41,565 nucleotides of DNA from Endomicrobium sp. (GCA_031289585.1 JAITPF010000010.1:1-41565), one strand, 5' to 3'; shown: positions 21,868 through 35,343, numbered from the stretch's first letter. The notes: a model not told the origin generated them from the sequence alone. A program made the numbers and translations.

Positions 21868-22896
21868 ATGAAGCTGACAGCATCAGAGCTTGCAGTAATT
21901 GTTTCAGGTGAGCTTATTGGCGACAAAAGTGTTGTTTTGACAGGCGTTAATGGACTTTCAGCTGCGAAAAAAAATGAAATTTCTTTTTTGGGGAATTTAA
22001 AATATCTTTCGGATGCTTTAAAAACCGATGCAGGAGCTATTTTTATTTCAGTTGATACGGATATTTCGCAGTTTGAAAGCAAAAATATTATAAAAGTATC
22101 AAATCCTCAGTATGCTTATAGTATCGTTCTTGGTATTATTGAAAAAGAAAGGCTGGGTTCAATAAAAAAAAACATACATAAGTCTTCTTTTATAGCAGAT
22201 GGTGTAAAAATAGGAAAAGATGCATATATAGGGCAGAATGTTGTAATTGAAGTTGAATCTGAAATTGGTGATAATGCAAAAATATTTCCAAATGTTTATA
22301 TAGGTAGAAATGTAAAAATTGGTAATGATTGTATTATTTATCCAAATGTAGTTATAAGAGAAGACACTCTAATAGGTGATAGGGTTATTATTCAGCCAGG
22401 AGCTGTTATTGGTGGAGATGGTTTTGGTTTTATAACTATAGGTGGTAAAATACAAAAAATTCCGCAGATAGGAAGAGTTGAAATAGGAAATGATGTAGAA
22501 ATTGGGGCAAACACTACAATTGATAAAGCTACTGTTGATGTTACAAGAATAGGTAGTGGAACAAAAATTGATAATCTTGTTCAAATAGCGCATAATGTTC
22601 AAATTGGTGAAAATTGCATAATAGTTGCACAGGCTGGAATAGCAGGATCAACAAAATTAGGAAATAACGTAACAATAGGCGGACAGTCTGGACTTGCGGG
22701 GCACTTAAAAATAGGAGATAATGTGCTGATAGCAAGTCAGGCGGGTATATCAGGAAATATTAAAAACAATGAGCAGGTTGGTGGAAATCCTATGTCACCG
22801 CTTAATCAAAGTATAAAGATAAGAGCATTAATAAGAAAACTGCCAGAAATATATAAAGATTTGCAAAGAATAAGAAAAAGTTTAGAGGATAAATAG
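21868..22896 (+). CDS. lpxD: UDP-3-O-acylglucosamine N-acyltransferase LpxD
   Basis: The 342-residue protein has the LpxD N-terminal uridine-binding domain ([17 protein letters not shown] to about 100). A left-handed beta-helix of hexapeptide repeats follows, including GGDGFGF, and catalytic His242 in [15 protein letters not shown]-terminal helix completes it. It adds the second acyl chain, at position 2, to the lipid A precursor in the cytoplasm. It abuts skp upstream and is 7 bases from the LpxC-FabZ fusion gene. Confidence 0.95.
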
Positions 22897-22903
22897 ATTT
22901 AAT

Positions 22904-24262
22904 ATGGCAAAGCAAACGACTATTTCAAAAGAAATTTCTATCGAAGGTATAGGACTTCATACGGGAAACAAGAGTATAGTAAATTTTAAGCCTGCCCCTA
23001 ATGCTGGGTATGGCATTAAATTTATAAGAACAGATTTTTCAGAAAAACCTGAAATTGAGGCTCTTTGGTCAAATGCCGCTACAGGTTTGGCAATAAGAGG
23101 AAGTGTTATTGAGAAAAACGGTGCAAGAGTCTATACGGTTGAACATATTATGTCTGCATGTTTTGCTCTAAGTATTGATAATTTAATTATAGAAATAAAT
23201 AATAATGAGCCACCAATTTTAGATGGCAGTGCAAAAATATTTACAGAAACTCTTTTAAAAGGAGGAATAAAAGAGTTTGATGTTCCTAAAGAATACTATG
23301 TTCTCAAAGAGCCCGTACATTTTGAATCTGGAAAAACAAAAATATCTGCATATCCATCAGATAAACTTGAAGTAGAGTGCACTATAGGGTTCGACCATCC
23401 ATTTTTAAAATTTCAACAAATGTCTTTAAAAAATCTAAACGAAGATTTTTATTTAAATAATATTGCTCCAGCAAGAACGTTCTGTTTTGATTATGAAATA
23501 GAATCACTTCAAAAGAATGGGCTTGCTTTGGGGGGCTCTATGGATAATGCAATAGTTGTATCTTTAGATGGAATACACAATAAAGAGCCATTGCGCTATA
23601 AAGATGAGTTTGTAAGACATAAAATTCTTGATTTGCTAGGTGATATATATTTGGCAGGAAAGCCAATAAAAGCTAAGATAGTTGCTGAAAAACCGGGACA
23701 TCAAAATAATATAAGTTTTGTAAAAGAATTTTTGAGAAAAGCGATTGTTGAAAAAGATAGAACTTTGGATATGGATAGTAGTGCTAGAAGTATAGAGTCA
23801 ATTAATACTGAAAAAATATTGAGCCTTGAAGAAGTTTTAAATTATATACCCCACAGATATCCGTTTCTTATGATTGATAAAGTAAAAATAAATACTGCCG
23901 ATTCTACAAGAGCAGTAGGATATAAGTGTGTAAGTGGAAATGAAAATTTCTTTCAGGGACATTTTCCAGAAGCACCGATAATGCCTGGAGTTTTAATTGT
24001 TGAAGCTATGGCACAGACATCGTGTGTTATGTTTCTTTCAAGACCTGAAATGAAAGGTTGTCTTGCGTATTTTATGTCTATAGACAAAACAAAATTCCGC
24101 AGACCGGTAAAGCCAGGAGACGTTCTTGAGCTACGTGTAGAGGTAGTAAAAGATAGTGGAAGACGTGGCAAAATGAAAGGCGAAGCTTATGTTGACGGAA
24201 AGTTAACTACCGAAGCTGAATTTATGTTTATTGTTGTTGATAAAGAGAAACAAGTAGGGTAA
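22904..24262 (+). CDS. lpxC/fabZ: Bifunctional LpxC deacetylase / FabZ 3-hydroxyacyl-ACP dehydratase
   Basis: The 452-residue fusion has LpxC at 1 to about 285, with zinc and catalytic residues E80-H81, H239, D243 and H266. FabZ follows at about 303-452, with H317 in IPHRYPFLMID and Glu367 in GHFPEAPIMPGVLIVEAM. LpxC carries out the committed step of lipid A synthesis. FabZ dehydrates hydroxyacyl-ACP, so the fusion sits at the branch where 3-hydroxyacyl chains go either to lipid A or to fatty acids. Such fusions are known in Bacteroidetes and some other phyla. It ends before a 177-base gap preceding lpxA. Confidence 0.95.
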   Translation: MAKQTTISKEISIEGIGLHTGNKSIVNFKPAPNAGYGIKFIRTDFSEKPEIEALWSNAATGLAIRGSVIEKNGARVYTVEHIMSACFALSIDNLIIEINNNEPPILDGSAKIFTETLLKGGIKEFDVPKEYYVLKEPVHFESGKTKISAYPSDKLEVECTIGFDHPFLKFQQMSLKNLNEDFYLNNIAPARTFCFDYEIESLQKNGLALGGSMDNAIVVSLDGIHNKEPLRYKDEFVRHKILDLLGDIYLAGKPIKAKIVAEKPGHQNNISFVKEFLRKAIVEKDRTLDMDSSARSIESINTEKILSLEEVLNYIPHRYPFLMIDKVKINTADSTRAVGYKCVSGNENFFQGHFPEAPIMPGVLIVEAMAQTSCVMFLSRPEMKGCLAYFMSIDKTKFRRPVKPGDVLELRVEVVKDSGRRGKMKGEAYVDGKLTTEAEFMFIVVDKEKQVG

Positions 24263-24317
24263 GTGAAATTTGCGACAATGTTTTTTGTTGTGTATAAAAC
24301 GTGAAAAATAAGAATTA

Positions 24318-24361
24318 TGAGTCTGATAGTAGTTACGAAATATTAGAGTGAGCAGGCTCTA
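24318..24361. repeat. Short pair of dispersed end motifs
   Basis: TGAGTCTGATAGTAG on the left and TGAGCAGGCTCTA (24349-24361) on the right resemble inverted ends of the TA-flanked repeat only 44 bases apart. It lies in the gap between lpxC/fabZ and the first lpxA. Confidence 0.4.
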
Positions 24362-24439
24362 TGGATATACGAAGTTGAAAGGTTTGATTTGTCAGAGCTT
24401 GCGAAGTAGATGGTTAAGGAATAAGAGGGCTAAATAAAA

Positions 24440-25204
24440 ATGATACATCAAACAGCTGTAATTGATAAAAGTGTAATTATTGAAGAAAATGTTGAAATAG
24501 GTCCTTATACGATTATAGGTCCAGAAACTATTGTAAAAAGTGGAACAAAAATACATGGACAATCAGTCATTGAGTATGCAGAGATAGGAATCAACTGTGA
24601 GATTTTTAATTTTTCATCAATAGGCAAACGTCCGCAGGATTTAAAATATCAGGGTGAAAAGACAAACGTTATAATTGGTGACGGTACTACAGTTAGAGAG
24701 TGTGTTACTTTAAATAGAGGTACTGTTGCGGCTGGACAAACTATTGTTGGTAAAAACTGTCTGCTTATGGCTTGCTCGCATATAGCTCATGACTGTATAA
24801 TAGGAGACAATGTAATAGTTGGATATTCAACAGGAATTGCAGGACATGTTGAAATAGATGATTATGCAATTTTAAGCGCAGGTGTAGGTGTGCATCAATT
24901 TTGTAAAATTGGAAAATCTGTAATTGTAGGCGCAGGTGCAATGATTAATATGGATGTTATCCCTTATGTAATGGCTCAAGGGGATAGAGCAGTTCTTGCA
25001 GGGTTAAATCTTGTAGGATTGAAAAGAAAGAAAATGAAGCTCTCTGAGATTGAGGATATAAAAAGCGCTTATAGAATATTATTTATGTCAAAACTGATAT
25101 TGGAAGAAGCAATGGCGAAGCTAGAAGAGTCAACGTCTTCTTGTGTTAAAGACATAACAAATTTTATAAAAAATTCCCAAAGAGGGATTACGAGACCAAA
25201 ATAA
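24440..25204 (+). CDS. lpxA: UDP-N-acetylglucosamine O-acyltransferase LpxA, first copy
   Basis: The 254-residue hexapeptide beta-helix protein keeps key LpxA features. These are QDLKY (Asp74/Lys76 of E. coli numbering), the catalytic histidine in HIAHDC (His125), AGHVEIDD (His144), VGVHQFCKIG (His160/Gln161) and LNLVGLKRKK. The acyl-chain ruler position equivalent to E. coli Gly173 is Ala. It transfers a 3-hydroxyacyl chain to position 3 of the UDP sugar, the first lipid A step. The stop overlaps the start of a second lpxA by one base (TAATG), so the copies are translated together. Confidence 0.93.
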   Translation: MIHQTAVIDKSVIIEENVEIGPYTIIGPETIVKSGTKIHGQSVIEYAEIGINCEIFNFSSIGKRPQDLKYQGEKTNVIIGDGTTVRECVTLNRGTVAAGQTIVGKNCLLMACSHIAHDCIIGDNVIVGYSTGIAGHVEIDDYAILSAGVGVHQFCKIGKSVIVGAGAMINMDVIPYVMAQGDRAVLAGLNLVGLKRKKMKLSEIEDIKSAYRILFMSKLILEEAMAKLEESTSSCVKDITNFIKNSQRGITRPK

Positions 25205-25968
25205 TGATTCATAATACTGCAATAATTGATAAAAGTGTTGTTATTGGTGAGAATGTTGAAATAGGAGCTTATACAGTTATAGGTAAAGATGTTATAATCG
25301 GCGCTGGTACAATAATAGGTTCAAATGCTTATATAGAATACGCTGAAATTGGCAAGAATTGCAAACTTTATAATTCTACTTCAATTGGTACTCCTCCACA
25401 GGATATGAGTTATAATAATGAGTCTTCAAAAGTTTATGTTGGTGATGGTACTATAGCGAGAGAATTTGTAACTTTTAATAGGGGTACAAAAAAAACAGGG
25501 AAAACCATAATTGGTAAAAATTGTTATTTTATGACGGCATCACATGTGGCTCATGATTGCCGAGTTGGCGATAATGTTATTGTGGCAAATAGTGCTGCTG
25601 CAGGTGGGCATGTTGAAATAGGTGATAATGCTTTTATAAGCGCAAATGTTGGTCTTCATCAATTTACAAAAATTGGAAAGAGTACAATGACAGGCAGTGG
25701 AGCTACTGTTACTATGGATATAATTCCATACACTTTATGTGCAGGATACAGAGCAACACTTAGTGGTTTAAATTTGGTTGGTATGAAAAGAAAAAAAATG
25801 TCGGCTGAAGATATTGACGTTGTAAAAGATGCATACCGTACACTTTTTATGTCAAAACTTTTACTTAAAGATGCTTTAGCCAAACTAGAACAAAGTAAAT
25901 CTGTTTATGTGCAGGAAGTAGTTGAGTTTATAAAGAACTCAAAAAGAGGAATAGCAAGACCCCAATAA
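25204..25968 (+). CDS. LpxA-family acyltransferase, second tandem copy
   Basis: This 254-residue paralogue has the same length and fold as the preceding LpxA and keeps the catalytic HVAHDC histidine, GGHVEIGD and GLHQFTKIG. It differs at sugar-contacting positions: QDMSY replaces QDLKY, so the residue equivalent to E. coli Lys76 is Ser. The ruler position is Ser. It is therefore probably an active acyltransferase with altered substrate or chain-length preference, not a decayed duplicate. With gnnA and gnnB nearby, one copy may use the 3-amino sugar. An inactive or structural role cannot be excluded. Confidence 0.85.
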   Translation: MIHNTAIIDKSVVIGENVEIGAYTVIGKDVIIGAGTIIGSNAYIEYAEIGKNCKLYNSTSIGTPPQDMSYNNESSKVYVGDGTIAREFVTFNRGTKKTGKTIIGKNCYFMTASHVAHDCRVGDNVIVANSAAAGGHVEIGDNAFISANVGLHQFTKIGKSTMTGSGATVTMDIIPYTLCAGYRATLSGLNLVGMKRKKMSAEDIDVVKDAYRTLFMSKLLLKDALAKLEQSKSVYVQEVVEFIKNSKRGIARPQ

Positions 25969-26008
25969 CCATGTTCGTAAACAGGAATCTATGTTAATCC
26001 TTTGTTGT

Positions 26009-26042
26009 CGTGTCATTCCTGTTGTGCAAACAGGAATCCACG
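26009..26042. repeat. Short palindrome of the CATTCC...GGAATCCA family
   Basis: TCATTCCTGTTGTGCAAACAGGAATCCA is a small inverted repeat (CCTGTT/AACAGG). A half copy, AAACAGGAATCTATG, lies at 25979-25993. Confidence 0.5.
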
Positions 26043-26077
26043 TTTGTTGTCATTTTGTGTACACTGCCAAAAGCAGC

Positions 26078-26154
26078 GTTGTCATTGCGAGCCTACGAAG
26101 TAGGCGTGGCAATCTTAAAGATTGCTTCACCTTTTCAGGTCTCGCAATGACAAC
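26078..26154. repeat. 77-bp compound palindrome
   Basis: Perfect 14-base arms GTTGTCATTGCGAG (26078-26091) and CTCGCAATGACAAC (26141-26154) enclose two smaller hairpins, GCCTAC/GTAGGC (26091-26105) and AATCTT/AAGATT. A RIP/BIME-like structure of this type is common in repeat-rich endosymbiont genomes. Confidence 0.75.
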
Positions 26155-26254
26155 CTTTTCAAGTGAGTTGATGGCGACTATAGTTTCATAATTTTGTGAA
26201 ATTCCCGTCTCGACTAAAAGACATTCGGGTATGACACAGTATTTACGATCTTGT

Positions 26255-26415
26255 CCGTCATTGCGCACTGCCAAGGGCAGCGAGGGTTTGCGTAGCAATC
26301 GTGGCAATCTGTTCTTTTGCTTTTATCTGTCATCGCGAGCTAACGAACTTAGCGTGGCGATCTGTTCTTAACAACAAAGATTGCTTTGTTAGGATTTTAT
26401 CTTTCATTGCAAAGA
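26255..26415. repeat. Two further copies of the TTGCG...GCAATCT palindromic repeat
   Basis: Copy one starts CCGTCATTGCGCACTGCC at 26255; copy two starts TGTCATCGCGAGC at 26328 and closes with CATTGCAAAGACGACA. Both diverge from the copy at 26078-26154. Confidence 0.6.
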
Positions 26416-26553
26416 CGACAAAAAACAACTTGTTTCACATTGGAGGCAGGTATTCATTGTGGTCTACAACTTCGCAAGCGACAACAAAAAATATATTGTT
26501 TTATAGATTTTATCGGTTTAAACTAATTTGATAGTTTGTACTTAAAGAGAAAA

Positions 26554-27354
26554 ATGGAAAATATAGGTCTAATAGCAGGAAATAATAGGTTTCCTTTTTT
26601 AGTTGCTGAAGAAATAAAGAAAAGCGGCAGCAGGGTTATTTGCATTGCATTAAAAGAAGAAGCAGATCCTGAATTGGAAAAAAATTGTGATAAAACATAT
26701 TGGTTTTCTATTGGGAAATTTCAGAGAGTTATAGATGCTTTAAAAAGCGAAAATGTGAAAACTGTTATAATGGCAGGACAAGTAAAACACGTTAAAATTT
26801 ATTCCACAATAAGTATGGATTTTCGTGCAATTAAAGTGATGGGAAGTTTAATCAATAAAAAAACGGATACAATTTTAAAAACGATTGCTAATGAATTTGA
26901 AAAAGATGGAATGCACCTTATTGCATCTCATACTTATTTAAAACATTTACTTGCACAAAAAGGTTTGATATCTGGAAAAAAACTTTCTTCTGATGAAAAT
27001 AAAGACGTTGAATTTGGATATAAAATAGCAAAAGGTATAGCAGGTTTTGACATTGGTCAAACTGTAATCGTAAAAGACAGATCTGTTCTTGCTGTCGAAT
27101 CAGTTGAAGGTACAGATGAATGCATTAAACGTGCGTATAAACTTGGTGGAGATAATTCTATAGTTGTTAAGGTAGCAAAACCAGATCAAGATTTTAGGTT
27201 TGATGTTCCAGTTATAGGTGTTAATACTGTAAACACTCTCAAAGAAAATAAAGTTAGAGCAATGGCAATAGAAGCTGATGTCACTTTAATATTGGACAGA
27301 GATGAAGTTATATGGAAAGCAAAGGAAGCAGGAGTCACTATAATAGCAATATGA
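26554..27354 (+). CDS. lpxI: UDP-2,3-diacylglucosamine pyrophosphatase LpxI
   Basis: The 266-residue protein (ATG 26554) starts MENIGLIAGNNRFPFLVAEE and contains the LpxI signatures VIMAGQVKHVKIYS, FGYKIAKGIAGFDIGQTVIVKD, AVESVEGTDECI and VPVIGVNTV. It hydrolyses UDP-diacylglucosamine to lipid X and UMP, replacing LpxH. The open frame extends six codons to a TTG, but the AAAGAG ribosome site and homology favour the ATG. It is separated from lpxA2 by a repeat island. Confidence 0.92.
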   Translation: MENIGLIAGNNRFPFLVAEEIKKSGSRVICIALKEEADPELEKNCDKTYWFSIGKFQRVIDALKSENVKTVIMAGQVKHVKIYSTISMDFRAIKVMGSLINKKTDTILKTIANEFEKDGMHLIASHTYLKHLLAQKGLISGKKLSSDENKDVEFGYKIAKGIAGFDIGQTVIVKDRSVLAVESVEGTDECIKRAYKLGGDNSIVVKVAKPDQDFRFDVPVIGVNTVNTLKENKVRAMAIEADVTLILDRDEVIWKAKEAGVTIIAI

Positions 27355-27435
27355 AAACATTGGCATACAATCAATAGGAAACTGCAAGGGTTATCCTCAT
27401 TGGAATCAAATTTGTGAAAAAGGATAGGTGTTTGT

Positions 27436-28437
27436 ATGAAAAATTTTCTTATGCAAAATAAGTTTAGCATAATATTAATTATCTTTTTAATTGTATTTGT
27501 TGGTATTATGAAGTGGAGAGAATGCTCTTCTTCTATTAATAAATTAGTAAAAGATCCTTGTGTTATTATGACTATAGAACACGGACTAGTTGATCAATTG
27601 GAATTTTTTGTGGTCGGTCAACAAATAAAAAAATTGGGATATAAAGTTAAATATGATATTTCGTGGTATAAAAATGTTGGTCATGCGTCGGATCCTAAAA
27701 AATCTGTTGATTCTAGAAGTTTACAATTATTAAAAGCTTTTCCATATATTGAATTTGATATGGCTAGCGATGAAGAGATAAAACTGTATAAGGAAAATTT
27801 TGCTTTTTGTGTGGATTCTAAGCATCAAAAGAGATCTTGGAGGTTTGGAAAGAAAATAAAACCTCCTATTTATATTAGTGTGGAAAATATAGATTGGTGG
27901 AATTTATGCCAAGATGTATCTGCGGATATTCTTAGATTTGGTAGCGAAGATACAGCTTTGAATAATTGTTCAAAATATTTTCATTTTGAAGATTCCATTA
28001 TGGGGGGGGTAAATACGAAAATACTTGAAAGAATAAGGAAGGCAAAGCATTCTATTGGCGTTCACGTGAGACGTGGGGATGATGCAAGACATGGTGCTGC
28101 AACATCTTTAGATTATTTTCTTAAAGCTGTTAAAAAAGCTAAAGAATTATTTCCAAATTCTTATTTTTTCTTTTTTTCAGATGAACCAGAATATGTTAAG
28201 GATAATATTTTCACAAAACTGGGTTCAGACATAAGAAAAGAAATTATTAACGTAAACGACGTTGATTCGTGTTATAAGGATTTATTTTTAATGTCGGAAT
28301 GTAAGCATCAGATACGCAGCCAAGGAAGTATGGGAGCAATTGCTTATTTGTTAAATAAATATTCTGGAAAGAAACTTATAGCACCTGCACGGGTTAGGAT
28401 GTATTCAAATATAAAGCCAGATATTGTTATTGACTAA
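27436..28437 (+). CDS. Membrane-anchored glycosyltransferase resembling alpha-1,2-fucosyltransferases (GT11)
   Basis: The 333-residue protein has one N-terminal hydrophobic segment (about 9-26) that could anchor it. The HSIGVHVRRGDD block matches the HxRRxD donor-site motif of GT11 alpha-1,2-fucosyltransferases. Later FFFFSDEPEYVK and CKHQIRSQGSMGAIAYLL correspond to the following family motifs. Its place between lpxI and gnnB suggests decoration of lipid A, core or O-antigen. Sequence similarity is confined to motifs, so donor and acceptor remain uncertain, and it may be a divergent GT-B enzyme of another kind. Its start region has a plausible AAAGGATAGG ribosome site. Confidence 0.6.
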   Translation: MKNFLMQNKFSIILIIFLIVFVGIMKWRECSSSINKLVKDPCVIMTIEHGLVDQLEFFVVGQQIKKLGYKVKYDISWYKNVGHASDPKKSVDSRSLQLLKAFPYIEFDMASDEEIKLYKENFAFCVDSKHQKRSWRFGKKIKPPIYISVENIDWWNLCQDVSADILRFGSEDTALNNCSKYFHFEDSIMGGVNTKILERIRKAKHSIGVHVRRGDDARHGAATSLDYFLKAVKKAKELFPNSYFFFFSDEPEYVKDNIFTKLGSDIRKEIINVNDVDSCYKDLFLMSECKHQIRSQGSMGAIAYLLNKYSGKKLIAPARVRMYSNIKPDIVID

Positions 28438-28499
28438 AATAATGTTAAGCAGAGTTGCACGAAAGCCCAGTAAAATTTTGTTTTTGCTGTTAATCAGCT

Positions 28500-28660
28500 G
28501 TGAGATTGTGCGGCAATCTTTTCTTTAACAGCATAGATTGATTGTTTCGTCGAGATTTTGTTTCTCCTTGCAACGACGACATTGTAATGGTTTGTTGGGT
28601 GCATCCAACCCATGTTGAAAAAGTCCGTCATTGCGAAGCTCGAAGAGCTGTGGCAATCTT
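28500..28660. repeat. Two TTGCG...GCAATCT-type palindromic repeats
   Basis: A divergent copy runs about 28500-28580 (GTGCGGCAATCTTTTC ... CTCCTTGCAACGACG). A half copy, CCGTCATTGCGAAGCTCGAA, lies at 28623-28658 with the hairpin AGCTCGAAGAGCT. They fill the 261-base gap before gnnB. Confidence 0.55.
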
Positions 28661-28698
28661 GTATTTAATATTGAAATTGGATTTATAAAGAGGAAAAA

Positions 28699-29793
28699 AT
28701 GATAACAGTGGCGTATCCTATTATTGGAAAAAAAGAAAAACAGTTAATTAAAGAAGTGTTGGATTCAAGGATGCTTGCAAGCGGTAAATATGTCGTGCAG
28801 TTTGAACAGTCTTTTGCAAAATATTCTGGTGCAAAGTTTAGTATTGCAAATGCAAATGGAACAACAGCGCTTCATACAGCTCTCTTAATGTGTAAAATTA
28901 AACCAGGAGATAAAGTTATTACAACTCCTTTTTCGTTTATAGCGACTTCGAATTCAATTCTTTTCTGTGGAGCAAAACCTATTTTTGTTGATATTGATCC
29001 TAAGACTTTTAACATAAATCCTGTTGAACTTGAAAAAACATTAAAAAAAGAAAGAAGTATTAAAGCTGTTTTGATAGTTCATCTTTACGGACTTCCATGC
29101 GATATGGATGCAATTCTTAAACTCAAGAAAAAATATAAATTTAAACTTATTGAAGATTCTTGCCAGGCTCACGGTGCCAAATTTAAGAATAGAAAAGTTG
29201 GTTCTTTTGGTGATGCAGCAGCTTTTTCATTTTATGCAACAAAAAATATGATGACAGCTGAAGGCGGCATTACTCTTACAAATGATGTAAAAGCAGATAA
29301 ATACGGAAGACAGATTATCAACCATGGCAGGAAAGATCATTTGACACATACAGTTTTGGGGTACAATTACAGACTTACAAACCTTGCTGCCGCTATAGGT
29401 ATAGCTCAACTTGAGCAACTTGAAGGTTGGATTGAAAAAAGAATTGAGAATGCTCAAAAATACAACGAAGCTTTTAAAGAACTAGATTTTTTGCAAACGC
29501 CTTATGTTCCAAAAAACTGCAGACATGTTTTTCACCAATATACAATAAGAGTTCCTTTATCGGAGAGAGAGAAAATTATTAAATATTTAGCAAAGAATGG
29601 TATAGGAAGTGGAATTTATTATGATACAGTGCTGTATAAACAACCATTTTATAAACAGCTTGGATATAAAGCAGGACTATGTAAAGAAGCAGAAAAAGCA
29701 GCAAGCGAAGTACTGTCGCTTCCAGTACATCCGTCTCTTTCAAAAGCCGATACAGACAAGATAATAAATGTAGTAAAGGGTTATAAAAGATGA
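28699..29793 (+). CDS. gnnB: DegT/DnrJ/EryC1-family sugar aminotransferase, probable GnnB
   Basis: The 364-residue PLP enzyme has NANGTTALHTAL, TPFSFIATSNSI and FVDIDPKTFN, then EDSCQAHGA, and the PLP-binding Lys182 in FYATKNMMTAEGG. It belongs to the nucleotide-sugar 3-aminotransferases. A Gfo/Idh/MocA dehydrogenase overlaps it by 4 bases and lpxB follows. This matches the known gnnA-gnnB pair, which oxidises and aminates UDP-GlcNAc at C3 to give UDP-GlcNAc3N for LpxA. The assignment rests on context plus family. A related WlbE/WecE-type role in O-antigen sugar synthesis is the alternative. Confidence 0.75.
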   Translation: MITVAYPIIGKKEKQLIKEVLDSRMLASGKYVVQFEQSFAKYSGAKFSIANANGTTALHTALLMCKIKPGDKVITTPFSFIATSNSILFCGAKPIFVDIDPKTFNINPVELEKTLKKERSIKAVLIVHLYGLPCDMDAILKLKKKYKFKLIEDSCQAHGAKFKNRKVGSFGDAAAFSFYATKNMMTAEGGITLTNDVKADKYGRQIINHGRKDHLTHTVLGYNYRLTNLAAAIGIAQLEQLEGWIEKRIENAQKYNEAFKELDFLQTPYVPKNCRHVFHQYTIRVPLSEREKIIKYLAKNGIGSGIYYDTVLYKQPFYKQLGYKAGLCKEAEKAASEVLSLPVHPSLSKADTDKIINVVKGYKR

Positions 29794-30722
29794 TAAGAAC
29801 TGCTGTAATAGGAGTAGGTTCTTTAGGGCAACATCATGCAAGAATCTTAGGACAACATCCTAACTCAAAACTTGAATTTGTAGTTGATGCAGATAAAAAA
29901 AGAGCTGAGAAAATTGCAAAAGTAAATAAAACAAGCTATTTAACGGATTTTAATGCTCTTATAGGAAAAGTTGATGCTGTGGTGATTGCAGTTCCTACGC
30001 TGTATCACTATAAAGCTGCAAAACCGCTTTTACAAAACAGGATTCATTGTCTTGTGGAAAAACCTTTTACTTTAAGTATTGAGGAATCTGAAGAACTTAT
30101 AGAAATAGCAAAGGATAAAAGTTTAGTTTTACAAGTAGGGCATGTTGAGAGATTTAATCCTGCAGTTATTGCTGCTGTGCCTTTTATAAATAAACCAAAG
30201 TTTATTGAAGTTAACAGACTGGGACCTTATGATCCAAGAAGTAATCATATCGGTGTGGTATTAGATTTGATGATTCACGATTTAGATATTTTGTTTTCTC
30301 TTGTAAAGGATAAAGTTATTTCTTTTGAAGCGTATGGAGCAAAAATTCTTTCCGATACAGAAGATATTGCTAAGGTTAGATTGAAATATGCAAATGGTTG
30401 TGTAGCAGATGTATCGGCAAGTAGAGTTTCAATGGAAAAATACAGAAGAATAAGAATTTTCCAACCAGATAGTTATGTTTCTATAGATTATGCTGGAAAA
30501 AGTCTTAAGGTTTATACAAAGAAAGAAGGAAAAGAAAAAATAACTTCTCTTTTTGATATAGATATTAAAAAACCTAGACTTCCGTCAAATGAGCCTCTTT
30601 TTTATGAACTTGATAATTTCCTAAGCAGTGTTATTGAAGGGAAAAAACCGACTGTTTCAGGCGAGCATGGGAGAGATGCTGTTGAGCTTGCACTGAATAT
30701 ACTTAAAAATATGGTATTTTAA
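29790..30722 (+). CDS. gnnA: Gfo/Idh/MocA-family oxidoreductase, probable GnnA
   Basis: The 310-residue protein has an N-terminal NAD-binding fold (TAVIGVGSLGQHHARIL), VVIAVPTLYHY, the EKPFTLS catalytic-lysine motif near residue 91, VGHVERFNPA and VLDLMIHDLDIL (histidine of the family's active site). It starts in the stop region of the aminotransferase gene (ATGA), so the two are translationally coupled. As GnnA it would oxidise the C3 hydroxyl of UDP-GlcNAc before amination. Location between lpxA/lpxI and lpxB supports a lipid A role. Confidence 0.75.
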   Translation: MIRTAVIGVGSLGQHHARILGQHPNSKLEFVVDADKKRAEKIAKVNKTSYLTDFNALIGKVDAVVIAVPTLYHYKAAKPLLQNRIHCLVEKPFTLSIEESEELIEIAKDKSLVLQVGHVERFNPAVIAAVPFINKPKFIEVNRLGPYDPRSNHIGVVLDLMIHDLDILFSLVKDKVISFEAYGAKILSDTEDIAKVRLKYANGCVADVSASRVSMEKYRRIRIFQPDSYVSIDYAGKSLKVYTKKEGKEKITSLFDIDIKKPRLPSNEPLFYELDNFLSSVIEGKKPTVSGEHGRDAVELALNILKNMVF

Positions 30723-31223
30723 TTAAAATCAAAATATTGAAGTCTTAAAGGGTATGGACATGACCTAGCACATTTATTTAGTCTTGTCCTGCACCTAATT
30801 AAGACATTTGATGGTAAACTCTCGTGGGGATCTGCGTTTTTTGTCACGCTTTTTAACTTGGGTGCCCGCATGAGACTTTGTCTCCGCGAGCATGACACAA
30901 CACTTTTGTCTGTCATTCCTGCGAACGCAGGAATCCACTTTAAGATTCTTTTTGCTGTGTCATTCCCGCGAAAGCGGGAATCCATGGTGACTAATATTTT
31001 ACAACAACTTGGATATCCGCGGAAGTTTACCCTTGAATGTTCTTATCAGGGGCGAGTATGGCAAAGTCATAAAATTTTGATATCGTTCGTTATTGCGGGC
31101 AGACGAAGTAGGCGCAGTAATTTTTTCTTTTAACGATGCATATTGCTTCATTGGCTTTGTCGATTTGCAATTGCAATCCTTTTTGGCTGGGTTGATAACA
31201 AACAAAAGATTTTAAAGGTAAAA
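30723..31223. other. Repeat-filled gap between gnnA and lpxB
   Basis: About 500 bases contain at least four palindromic repeats listed separately and no gene. The frame upstream of lpxB is open through the repeat up to a TTG at 31143, which explains why lpxB can look 27 codons longer. Confidence 0.6.
30797..31137. repeat. Cluster of palindromic repeats from three families
   Basis: In order: a half copy of the 5494-type hairpin (30797-30840, AATTAAGACATTTGATGGTA), and two short palindromes, CATTCCTGCGAACGCAGGAA (30920-30939) and CATTCCCGCGAAAGCGGGAA (30961-30980). A right half of the 5494-type hairpin (ACAACAACTTGGATATCCGC, ending near 31057) and a TTGCGG...GCAGTAAT copy (31088-31137) follow. 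The 30961 palindrome is a near-perfect hairpin. Confidence 0.7.
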
Positions 31224-32300
31224 ATGTCAAATAATAAAATATTTATTTCAGCAGGTGACTTATCCGGTGAAATGCATGCCTCAAATCTTGTAAAAGAAAT
31301 CAAAAATATTAATCCTTTATGTCATGTTTCTGCGATAGGAGGTAATAATTTAAAATCAACTGCTGACGAATTTCTTGAAGATATAGTAAATATCAATGCT
31401 TTCGGTTTTTTACCTGTAAAGCAGATTTTTTATTTAAAAAAAGTTTTAAAAAAACTTGAGAAATATTTTATCAAAGAACGTCCTGATAAAATTATATTAG
31501 TAGATTATTATGGATTTCATATATTTATTGCAAGACTTGCAAAAAAATTAAAAATTCCTGTTTATTATTATATAAGTCCACAAGTGTGGGCATCGCGTAG
31601 CGGAAGAATAAAAAAACTTGCCAAAACAGTTAAAAAAATGCTTGTAATTTTACCTTTTGAAGAAGAGTTGTATAGAGATAATGGTGTTGACGCAGTTTTT
31701 GTAGGGAACCCTTTGATAGATGAAGTGCCTGAAAAACATAGCTTTAATGTATCAAATCCTCTTGTTGTAGGTTTATTTCCAGGAAGTCGTAAAAGCGCTA
31801 TTAAACGTCATGTACCTATAATTCTTAAAACTGCAAAAATACTTAAAGAAAAAATAAATGCAAAATTTATAATGTTTAGTACAGGTAATAATACAGGTTT
31901 TAATTTGCCAAATTACATCAAATTTGACAATTCTAGAGATTTTGAAAAAAGGAAATCTATAGATTTTGCAATTTGTCCATCAGGGACTGTAAGTCTTGAA
32001 AACGCTTTAATGGGAATTCCAATGGCTGTTATGTATAAATTATCATATTTTAACTATTTTTTTATAAGAGCAATCATAAAAACAAAATATATAGCTATAG
32101 TAAACATTTTAGCCAATAAAAATATTGTTCCTGAATTTATACAGTTTGATGCCAAACCACAAAAAATAGTATTATCGGTACTAGAACAAATAAGGACTGA
32201 AAAGTATATGGAAAAAGCTAAAGAATTACTTGCTTTCAGAAAAATGCTTGGAACCTCAGGAGTAAGCAAAAGAGCTGCTGAGATTATTTTAAACGATTAA
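31224..32300 (+). CDS. lpxB: Lipid A disaccharide synthase LpxB
   Basis: The 358-residue protein (ATG 31224) begins MSNNKIFISAGDLSGEMHAS, as LpxB proteins do. It includes IGGNNLKS, VDYYGFHIFIARLAKK, YYYISPQVWASRSGRIKKL, FVGNPLIDEV and FPGSRKSAIKRHVP, then CPSGTVSLENALMGIPMAVMYKLS. It joins lipid X and UDP-diacyl sugar into the tetraacyl disaccharide on the inner membrane. The in-frame extension to 31143 is repeat DNA and lacks a ribosome site; AAAGG sits before 31224. It completes the lpx set here; lpxK and kdtA are not in the window. Confidence 0.93.
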   Translation: MSNNKIFISAGDLSGEMHASNLVKEIKNINPLCHVSAIGGNNLKSTADEFLEDIVNINAFGFLPVKQIFYLKKVLKKLEKYFIKERPDKIILVDYYGFHIFIARLAKKLKIPVYYYISPQVWASRSGRIKKLAKTVKKMLVILPFEEELYRDNGVDAVFVGNPLIDEVPEKHSFNVSNPLVVGLFPGSRKSAIKRHVPIILKTAKILKEKINAKFIMFSTGNNTGFNLPNYIKFDNSRDFEKRKSIDFAICPSGTVSLENALMGIPMAVMYKLSYFNYFFIRAIIKTKYIAIVNILANKNIVPEFIQFDAKPQKIVLSVLEQIRTEKYMEKAKELLAFRKMLGTSGVSKRAAEIILND

Positions 32301-35264: not shown

Positions 35265-35343
35265 GATTGCCATGTTTTTTGCCTGTCAATTGCGAAAAAA
35301 ATTAAGATCTTTTGCGAGGCAAAAAACTCGCAATGACAACAGA
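35265..35343. repeat. Degenerate palindromic repeat
   Basis: GATTGCCATGTTTTTTGCCT on the left and TTTTGCGAGGCAAAAAACTC, then GCAATGAC, on the right. The small inner palindrome GCGAGGCAAAAAACTCGC resembles a terminator stem. Confidence 0.5.

Follow-up and report, generated by a model that had tools for sequence, protein, structure and literature searches.

Which backbone does a bacterium give its lipid A when its lpx operon holds two lpxA genes together with the genes of a sugar oxidoreductase and an aminotransferase? The question is raised by a 41,565-nucleotide stretch of Endomicrobium sp. DNA (GCA_031289585.1 JAITPF010000010.1:1-41565; hereafter the window), in which an operon at 21868-32300 encodes, all on the plus strand, LpxD, an LpxC-FabZ fusion, LpxA1, LpxA2, LpxI, a GT11 glycosyltransferase, a DegT aminotransferase, a Gfo/Idh/MocA oxidoreductase and LpxB (Table 1). 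Lipid A backbone chemistry sets membrane stability and the strength of host sensing, and it is usually known only after chemical analysis. An initial annotation had taken the oxidoreductase and the aminotransferase for GnnA and GnnB and had predicted lipid A built on a 2,3-diamino sugar; it stopped short of lpxD and lpxC-fabZ (21868-24262) and did not take up what a second lpxA would imply. Open reading frames and family scans bear out the order that it gave from lpxA to lpxB. The LpxA pair is the most telling part of the locus, and once the duplication is taken into account the predicted backbone is mixed and no longer purely diamino: a lipid A containing 2,3-diamino-2,3-dideoxyglucose (GlcN3N) is still the most likely product of the operon, as annotated, but a fully diamino one is not, since LpxA1 keeps an active site of the type that uses UDP-N-acetylglucosamine (UDP-GlcNAc). 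We favour, with a probability of about 0.6, a hybrid of glucosamine (GlcN) and GlcN3N, with labour divided between the two LpxA.

From the gene content, gene order, ancestry, residue pattern and loss pattern described below, we infer the following reactions, their sharing between the enzymes and the resulting backbone. GnnA would oxidise UDP-GlcNAc at C3, and the DegT aminotransferase would then transaminate the C3 ketone to give the 3-amino form, UDP-GlcNAc3N. LpxA1 would attach a 3-hydroxyacyl chain to UDP-GlcNAc at the 3-oxygen, and LpxA2 one to UDP-GlcNAc3N at the 3-nitrogen. Both products would then be processed by LpxC-FabZ, LpxD, LpxI and LpxB, GlcN and GlcN3N units would be joined, and the amide at position 3 would be confined to the GlcN3N units. 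Which of the two units stands at the reducing end cannot be read from the genes. The organism's own genome (49 contigs, 1.28 Mb, 86% complete) also encodes LpxK, with which lipid A synthesis can proceed further.

The hybrid reading has a precedent in Capnocytophaga canimorsus, which carries two lpxA genes (lpxA and lpxA'), gnnA and gnnB, and in which a GlcN3N-GlcN hybrid backbone has been proven (PMC3342949). The window likewise has two lpxA, gnnA and a gene for a putative GnnB-like aminotransferase. It differs in that its genes form a single operon, its two lpxA are tandem duplicates that arose within the genus, and its aminotransferase belongs to a lineage separate from the lpx-linked GnnB of Proteobacteria.

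The two LpxA copies of the window are 59% identical. Each exceeds the NCBIfam LpxA cut-off in the family scan, has the hexapeptides of the left-handed helix, the C-terminal domain and catalytic His125, and retains the other catalytic or substrate residues H122, H144, H160, N198 and R204. Residues are numbered by an E. coli LpxA sequence whose pocket residues match the table in PMC7072397. According to that paper, the UDP pocket includes E. coli Leu116 and Ile152, and Lys72 of the Pseudomonas aeruginosa enzyme, equivalent to E. coli Lys76, touches the 6-OH of GlcNAc. At positions 76/116/152, LpxA1 reads K/L/I, as in E. coli, and LpxA2 reads S-Y-F, close to the G-Y-F of Leptospira LpxA (3hsq) and thus in the pattern of a selective enzyme; Campylobacter LpxA (3r0s) reads S-F-V. 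The same division runs through the genus, where K76 is present in all 23 LpxA1 and replaced by Ser, Gly, Asn or Cys in every one of the 22 LpxA2; LpxA2 has Tyr116 and Phe152, and LpxA1 has Leu or Met at 116 and mostly Ile at 152. In work of the Raetz group, Leptospira LpxA reportedly showed strict selectivity for UDP-GlcNAc3N, and the E. coli enzyme took both substrates. For the Leptospira enzyme, the carbonyl of Gln73 has been put forward as the determinant of this selectivity. We treat the changes at 76, 116 and 152 as markers, which may themselves cause the selectivity, and an LpxA1 with a UDP-GlcNAc-type active site makes a mixed backbone likelier than a fully diamino one. As a separate observation, in the LpxA2 of three relatives (L067, L078, L080) Val replaces His160, a conserved substrate-binding residue.

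When these signature columns are left out of the tree, the LpxA1 and LpxA2 clades of the genus come out as sisters (support 100/100), a topology by which LpxA2 arose in the genus by tandem duplication of LpxA1 and had its active site altered afterwards. Acquisition of LpxA2 by transfer from the proteobacterial second-LpxA clade is not supported by this placement. The likeness of LpxA2 to Leptospira LpxA (3hsq, 3i3a, 3i3x), with which it shares Y116, F152 and the lack of K76, is convergent for the same reason. Gammaproteobacteria that bear gnnAB (Methylococcales and others) also pair a K76 LpxA with a second copy, of pattern S/G-Y/F-F; their second copy, however, is an old separate clade and not a tandem duplicate of the local LpxA.

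We compared the lpx locus in 60 relatives. Where the locus is present in the genus, the operon order is mostly repeated without GT11 and two LpxA are usual, so the arrangement in the window is not a chance one. Several small or decaying genomes have lost parts of the operon. G025 (99% complete) has only a pseudogene for LpxA1, beside intact LpxA2, gnnB, gnnA, lpxI and lpxB; G018 has no LpxA2 and only pseudogenes of gnnA and gnnB, beside intact LpxA1, lpxI and lpxB; and in G027 (L081), gnnA, gnnB and lpxB are full of stops. Three further genomes (G001, G015, G028) keep gnnAB with LpxA1 as their only LpxA. Together these patterns indicate that each LpxA is dispensable alone and that LpxA1 alone can occur without gnnAB. 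An intact LpxA2 without gnnAB was not seen in the genus loci examined. In another genome of the set, G021 (L076), the lpxA copies are broken and LpxK is intact, the picture of a decaying lipid A operon.

The losses bear on whether the two LpxA might both use UDP-GlcNAc3N, giving a fully diamino lipid A, and differ in acyl-chain length only. Position 173, the chain-length ruler of LpxA, is A in LpxA1 and S in LpxA2 and differs within most LpxA pairs, and an LpxA of the E. coli type, as reported by the Raetz group, accepts both substrates. A difference in chain length, however, does not need the strict 76/116/152 split in the sugar-nucleotide pocket, and G018, which retains LpxA1 and the remaining pathway without gnnAB, would have its LpxA1 use UDP-GlcNAc. 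We regard a fully diamino product as quite unlikely.

The hybrid reading also depends on the identity of the oxidoreductase, which carries two domains of the Gfo/Idh/MocA fold (PF01408, PF22725). Its best match among solved structures is 7bvj, which we take to be GnnA of Acidithiobacillus ferrooxidans and which the PDB labels only as 'Oxidoreductase, NAD-binding'. In the tree it groups with 7bvj and the lpx-linked GnnA of many phyla, and a long branch with 100% support separates it from WlbA-like proteins of its own phylum, the WlbA-type label having been assigned from acetyltransferase fusions or neighbours and from DegT neighbours. By this placement, the protein is of the lpx-linked GnnA family and not of the WlbA type, and its annotation as GnnA stands. 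The same branch speaks against the pair making a 2,3-diacetamido sugar or uronic acid for O-antigen in the manner of WlbA/WlbE. The enzyme superfamilies of that route are identical and WlbA-like proteins are paired with DegT enzymes elsewhere in the phylum, but neither an N-acetyltransferase nor a UDP-glucuronate gene was found beside the pair in the window, and we consider this route highly improbable.

The aminotransferase is a DegT/DnrJ/EryC1 enzyme (PF01041) whose SFYATKN motif supplies the lysine for pyridoxal phosphate. Here the initial annotation needs correction, since the enzyme and the lpx-linked GnnB of Proteobacteria are not orthologues, and the name GnnB is a guess at its function. 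The GnnB genes that adjoin gnnA in Proteobacteria form one tight family; the window enzyme falls in a distinct clade with those of G036, G038, G039 and G042, from the same taxonomic order, beyond several generic DegT enzymes. A single clade of both groups is rejected by the approximately unbiased (AU) test (p 0.006, with long branches in play). Against a proteobacterial GnnB profile, the window enzyme scores 304 bits, canonical GnnB 487-671 and generic DegT enzymes about 240-480. These trees lacked the GnnB of A. ferrooxidans, Leptospira, Campylobacter and Capnocytophaga. In A. ferrooxidans, gnnA and gnnB both lie in an lpx cluster; the window resembles it in the GnnA family and differs in having two LpxA and an aminotransferase gene that precedes gnnA and is non-orthologous to lpx-linked GnnB, A. 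ferrooxidans GnnB being outside the comparison.

Gene linkage points to a GnnB-like function all the same. The aminotransferase stop and the gnnA start share ATGA at 29790-29793 when read from the sequence, the 4-base overlap already annotated, and across the genus the aminotransferase gene lies between lpxI and gnnA, and it either overlaps gnnA translationally or ends a few bases before it. The two genes also decay jointly in relatives. The enzyme probably does the job of GnnB, recruited separately from another DegT line.

The residue pattern reaches beyond the genus. The LpxA sequences came from three sets: 80 named genomes located by way of their GnnA; an even draw of 114 Gammaproteobacteria, of whose single-copy LpxA not all were fetched; and part of 148 Bacteroidota. 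In 46 genomes that combine a gnn pair with two LpxA, one copy and not the other has an aromatic residue at 116 in 44 cases, and K76 is missing from just one of the two in 42; among 32 with a gnn pair and a single LpxA, position 116 is non-aromatic in 30 and K76 is present in 25. Within the Gammaproteobacteria, canonical GnnB is associated with two LpxA (12/24 against 5/50 examined, p 0.0003) and with loss of K76 (15/24 against 13/50, p 0.004), in tests that ignore relatedness. Within the window's order, Y116-F152 is confined to genomes holding the gnn pair.

The LpxA tree requires about 20 changes at position 76, and the pairs have at least three independent origins, in the window genus, in G036 and in Proteobacteria, whose second copies are placed elsewhere in the tree than the LpxA2 of the genus. 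The G036 pair is a second duplication when the signature columns are removed (98/92); a single old duplication common to the genus and G036 is disfavoured (AU p 0.036) but not firmly excluded. Somewhat short of an even bet, in our judgement, is the broader proposal that on at least three separate occasions LpxA may have exchanged a hydroxyl for an amine substrate through one small set of changes (K76 to a small residue, L/W116 to Tyr/Phe, I152 to Phe), each time in the second copy of a genome with GnnA and an aminotransferase, the aminotransferase step being filled in the window lineage by an enzyme of other descent than the lpx-linked GnnB. Its basis is a small sample, three or so origins together with the Leptospira structure.

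K76 as the sole switch is ruled out, both by the second copies of G036 and Rhodocyclales, which have K76 with aromatic 116 and F152, and by G056/G059, which have S76 with L116/I152. Loss of K76 as proof of gnnAB is likewise rejected, H, R, T or G standing at 76 in many genomes with gnnA only. Bacteroidota partly failed as a gnnA-free control: 99 of the 148 genomes encode GnnA-like proteins, located away from the lpx locus; the fetched lpx loci had none, and all fetched LpxA but one had K76. Two further observations concern LpxA. His76 occurs in L226, L271, L274 and L279 (Desulfobulbales-like) and Arg76 in their relative L273, with GnnA and without GnnB. In L097, L100, L103, L104 and L106, from one family of the class, LpxA lies within open frames of 434-466 aa, far exceeding the length of LpxA by itself, which suggests fusion.

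Several observations weigh against a GlcN/GlcN3N hybrid or against our route to it: (i) the genomes with gnnAB and LpxA1 alone mean that LpxA2 is not required where gnnAB exists; (ii) the second LpxA of G036 reads K-Y-F, with 116 and 152 changed and K76 kept, so loss of K76 is inessential; (iii) the residue signature also occurs in genomes with no recognised GnnB; (iv) a relatedness-aware paired test of 76 against 116 or 152 was not significant, with few independent differing pairs; (v) the nearest tree neighbours of the aminotransferase, on long branches, are perosamine-synthase-like C4 aminotransferases; and (vi) most of the phylum's other families, and many further phyla, have a gnnA without gnnB between lpxI/lpxA and lpxB, and GnnA may hence have another role.

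The last two points suggest an alternative in which the aminotransferase acts on C4 or on another sugar, like perosamine synthase or PseC, GnnA works as it does in species without GnnB, and the lipid A is of the ordinary GlcN kind. GnnA without GnnB is ancestral in the phylum, and the top NCBIfam match of the aminotransferase is PseC, below the cut-off (312.8 of 423.5). The gene's position and its tight spacing to gnnA in the genus, the joint decay of gnnA and gnnB in G018 and G027, and the restriction of Y116-F152 within the order to gnn-bearing genomes tell against this, and we judge it unlikely.

Because gnnA alone is so common, its presence among lpx genes argues only weakly for GlcN3N and should not be taken on its own as a sign of GlcN3N lipid A. 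GnnB-less GnnA-like genes stand in the lpx loci L093, L094, L096-L100, L104-L112, L123 and L140-L192, mostly with a K76 LpxA. If the proposal of repeated switching is true, a three-residue LpxA code, backed by independent duplications, would make it possible to tell from LpxA sequence alone whether a genome stands for GlcN, hybrid or GlcN3N lipid A, uncultured groups included. A literature search on Endomicrobium lipid A found nothing useful.

Table 1. Genes of the lpx operon, with positions counted from the first nucleotide of the window.
Feature	Position	Strand	Support
lpxD, UDP-3-acyl-glucosamine N-acyltransferase	21868..22896	+	TIGR01853 350.6 bits, cut-off 242.5
lpxC-fabZ fusion, deacetylase and hydroxyacyl-ACP dehydratase	22904..24262	+	NF009667 480.6 bits, cut-off 465
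lpxA1, UDP-GlcNAc-type acyltransferase by residues K76, L116, I152	24440..25204	+	TIGR01852 295.6 bits
lpxA2, probable UDP-GlcNAc3N-type acyltransferase by residues S76, Y116, F152	25204..25968	+	TIGR01852 293 bits
lpxI, UDP-2,3-diacylglucosamine pyrophosphatase	26554..27354	+	PF17930 and PF06230 (LpxI_N/C)
GT11 (alpha-1,2-fucosyltransferase-like) glycosyltransferase	27436..28437	+	PF01531 49.9 bits
DegT/DnrJ/EryC1 aminotransferase, putative functional GnnB analogue	28699..29793	+	PF01041 396.7 bits
gnnA, UDP-GlcNAc 3-dehydrogenase-like oxidoreductase	29790..30722	+	PF01408, PF22725; 7bvj E 8e-54
lpxB, lipid A disaccharide synthase	31224..32300	+	TIGR00215 198.9 bits, cut-off 190.25

One base, 25204, is common to lpxA1 and lpxA2. 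The start of lpxI is the ATG at 26554, with a TTG upstream of it at 26536; for lpxB the ATG at 31224 is the likelier start and a TTG at 31143 is possible. The GT11 gene is patchy within the genus, being intact or partial in only two other fetched lpx loci, and it occupies differing sites in the operon (27436-28437 in the window, 7548-8588 in L078, about 3157 in L088), with a fragment in G035. The gaps before lpxI, the aminotransferase gene and lpxB consist largely of repeat-like sequence. A dispersed repeat with the core GTCATTGCGAG has six matches in the window against 0.26 expected, and its sites fall at 25970-26540, 28440-28690 and 30740-31220, and also at 35327 and 40507.

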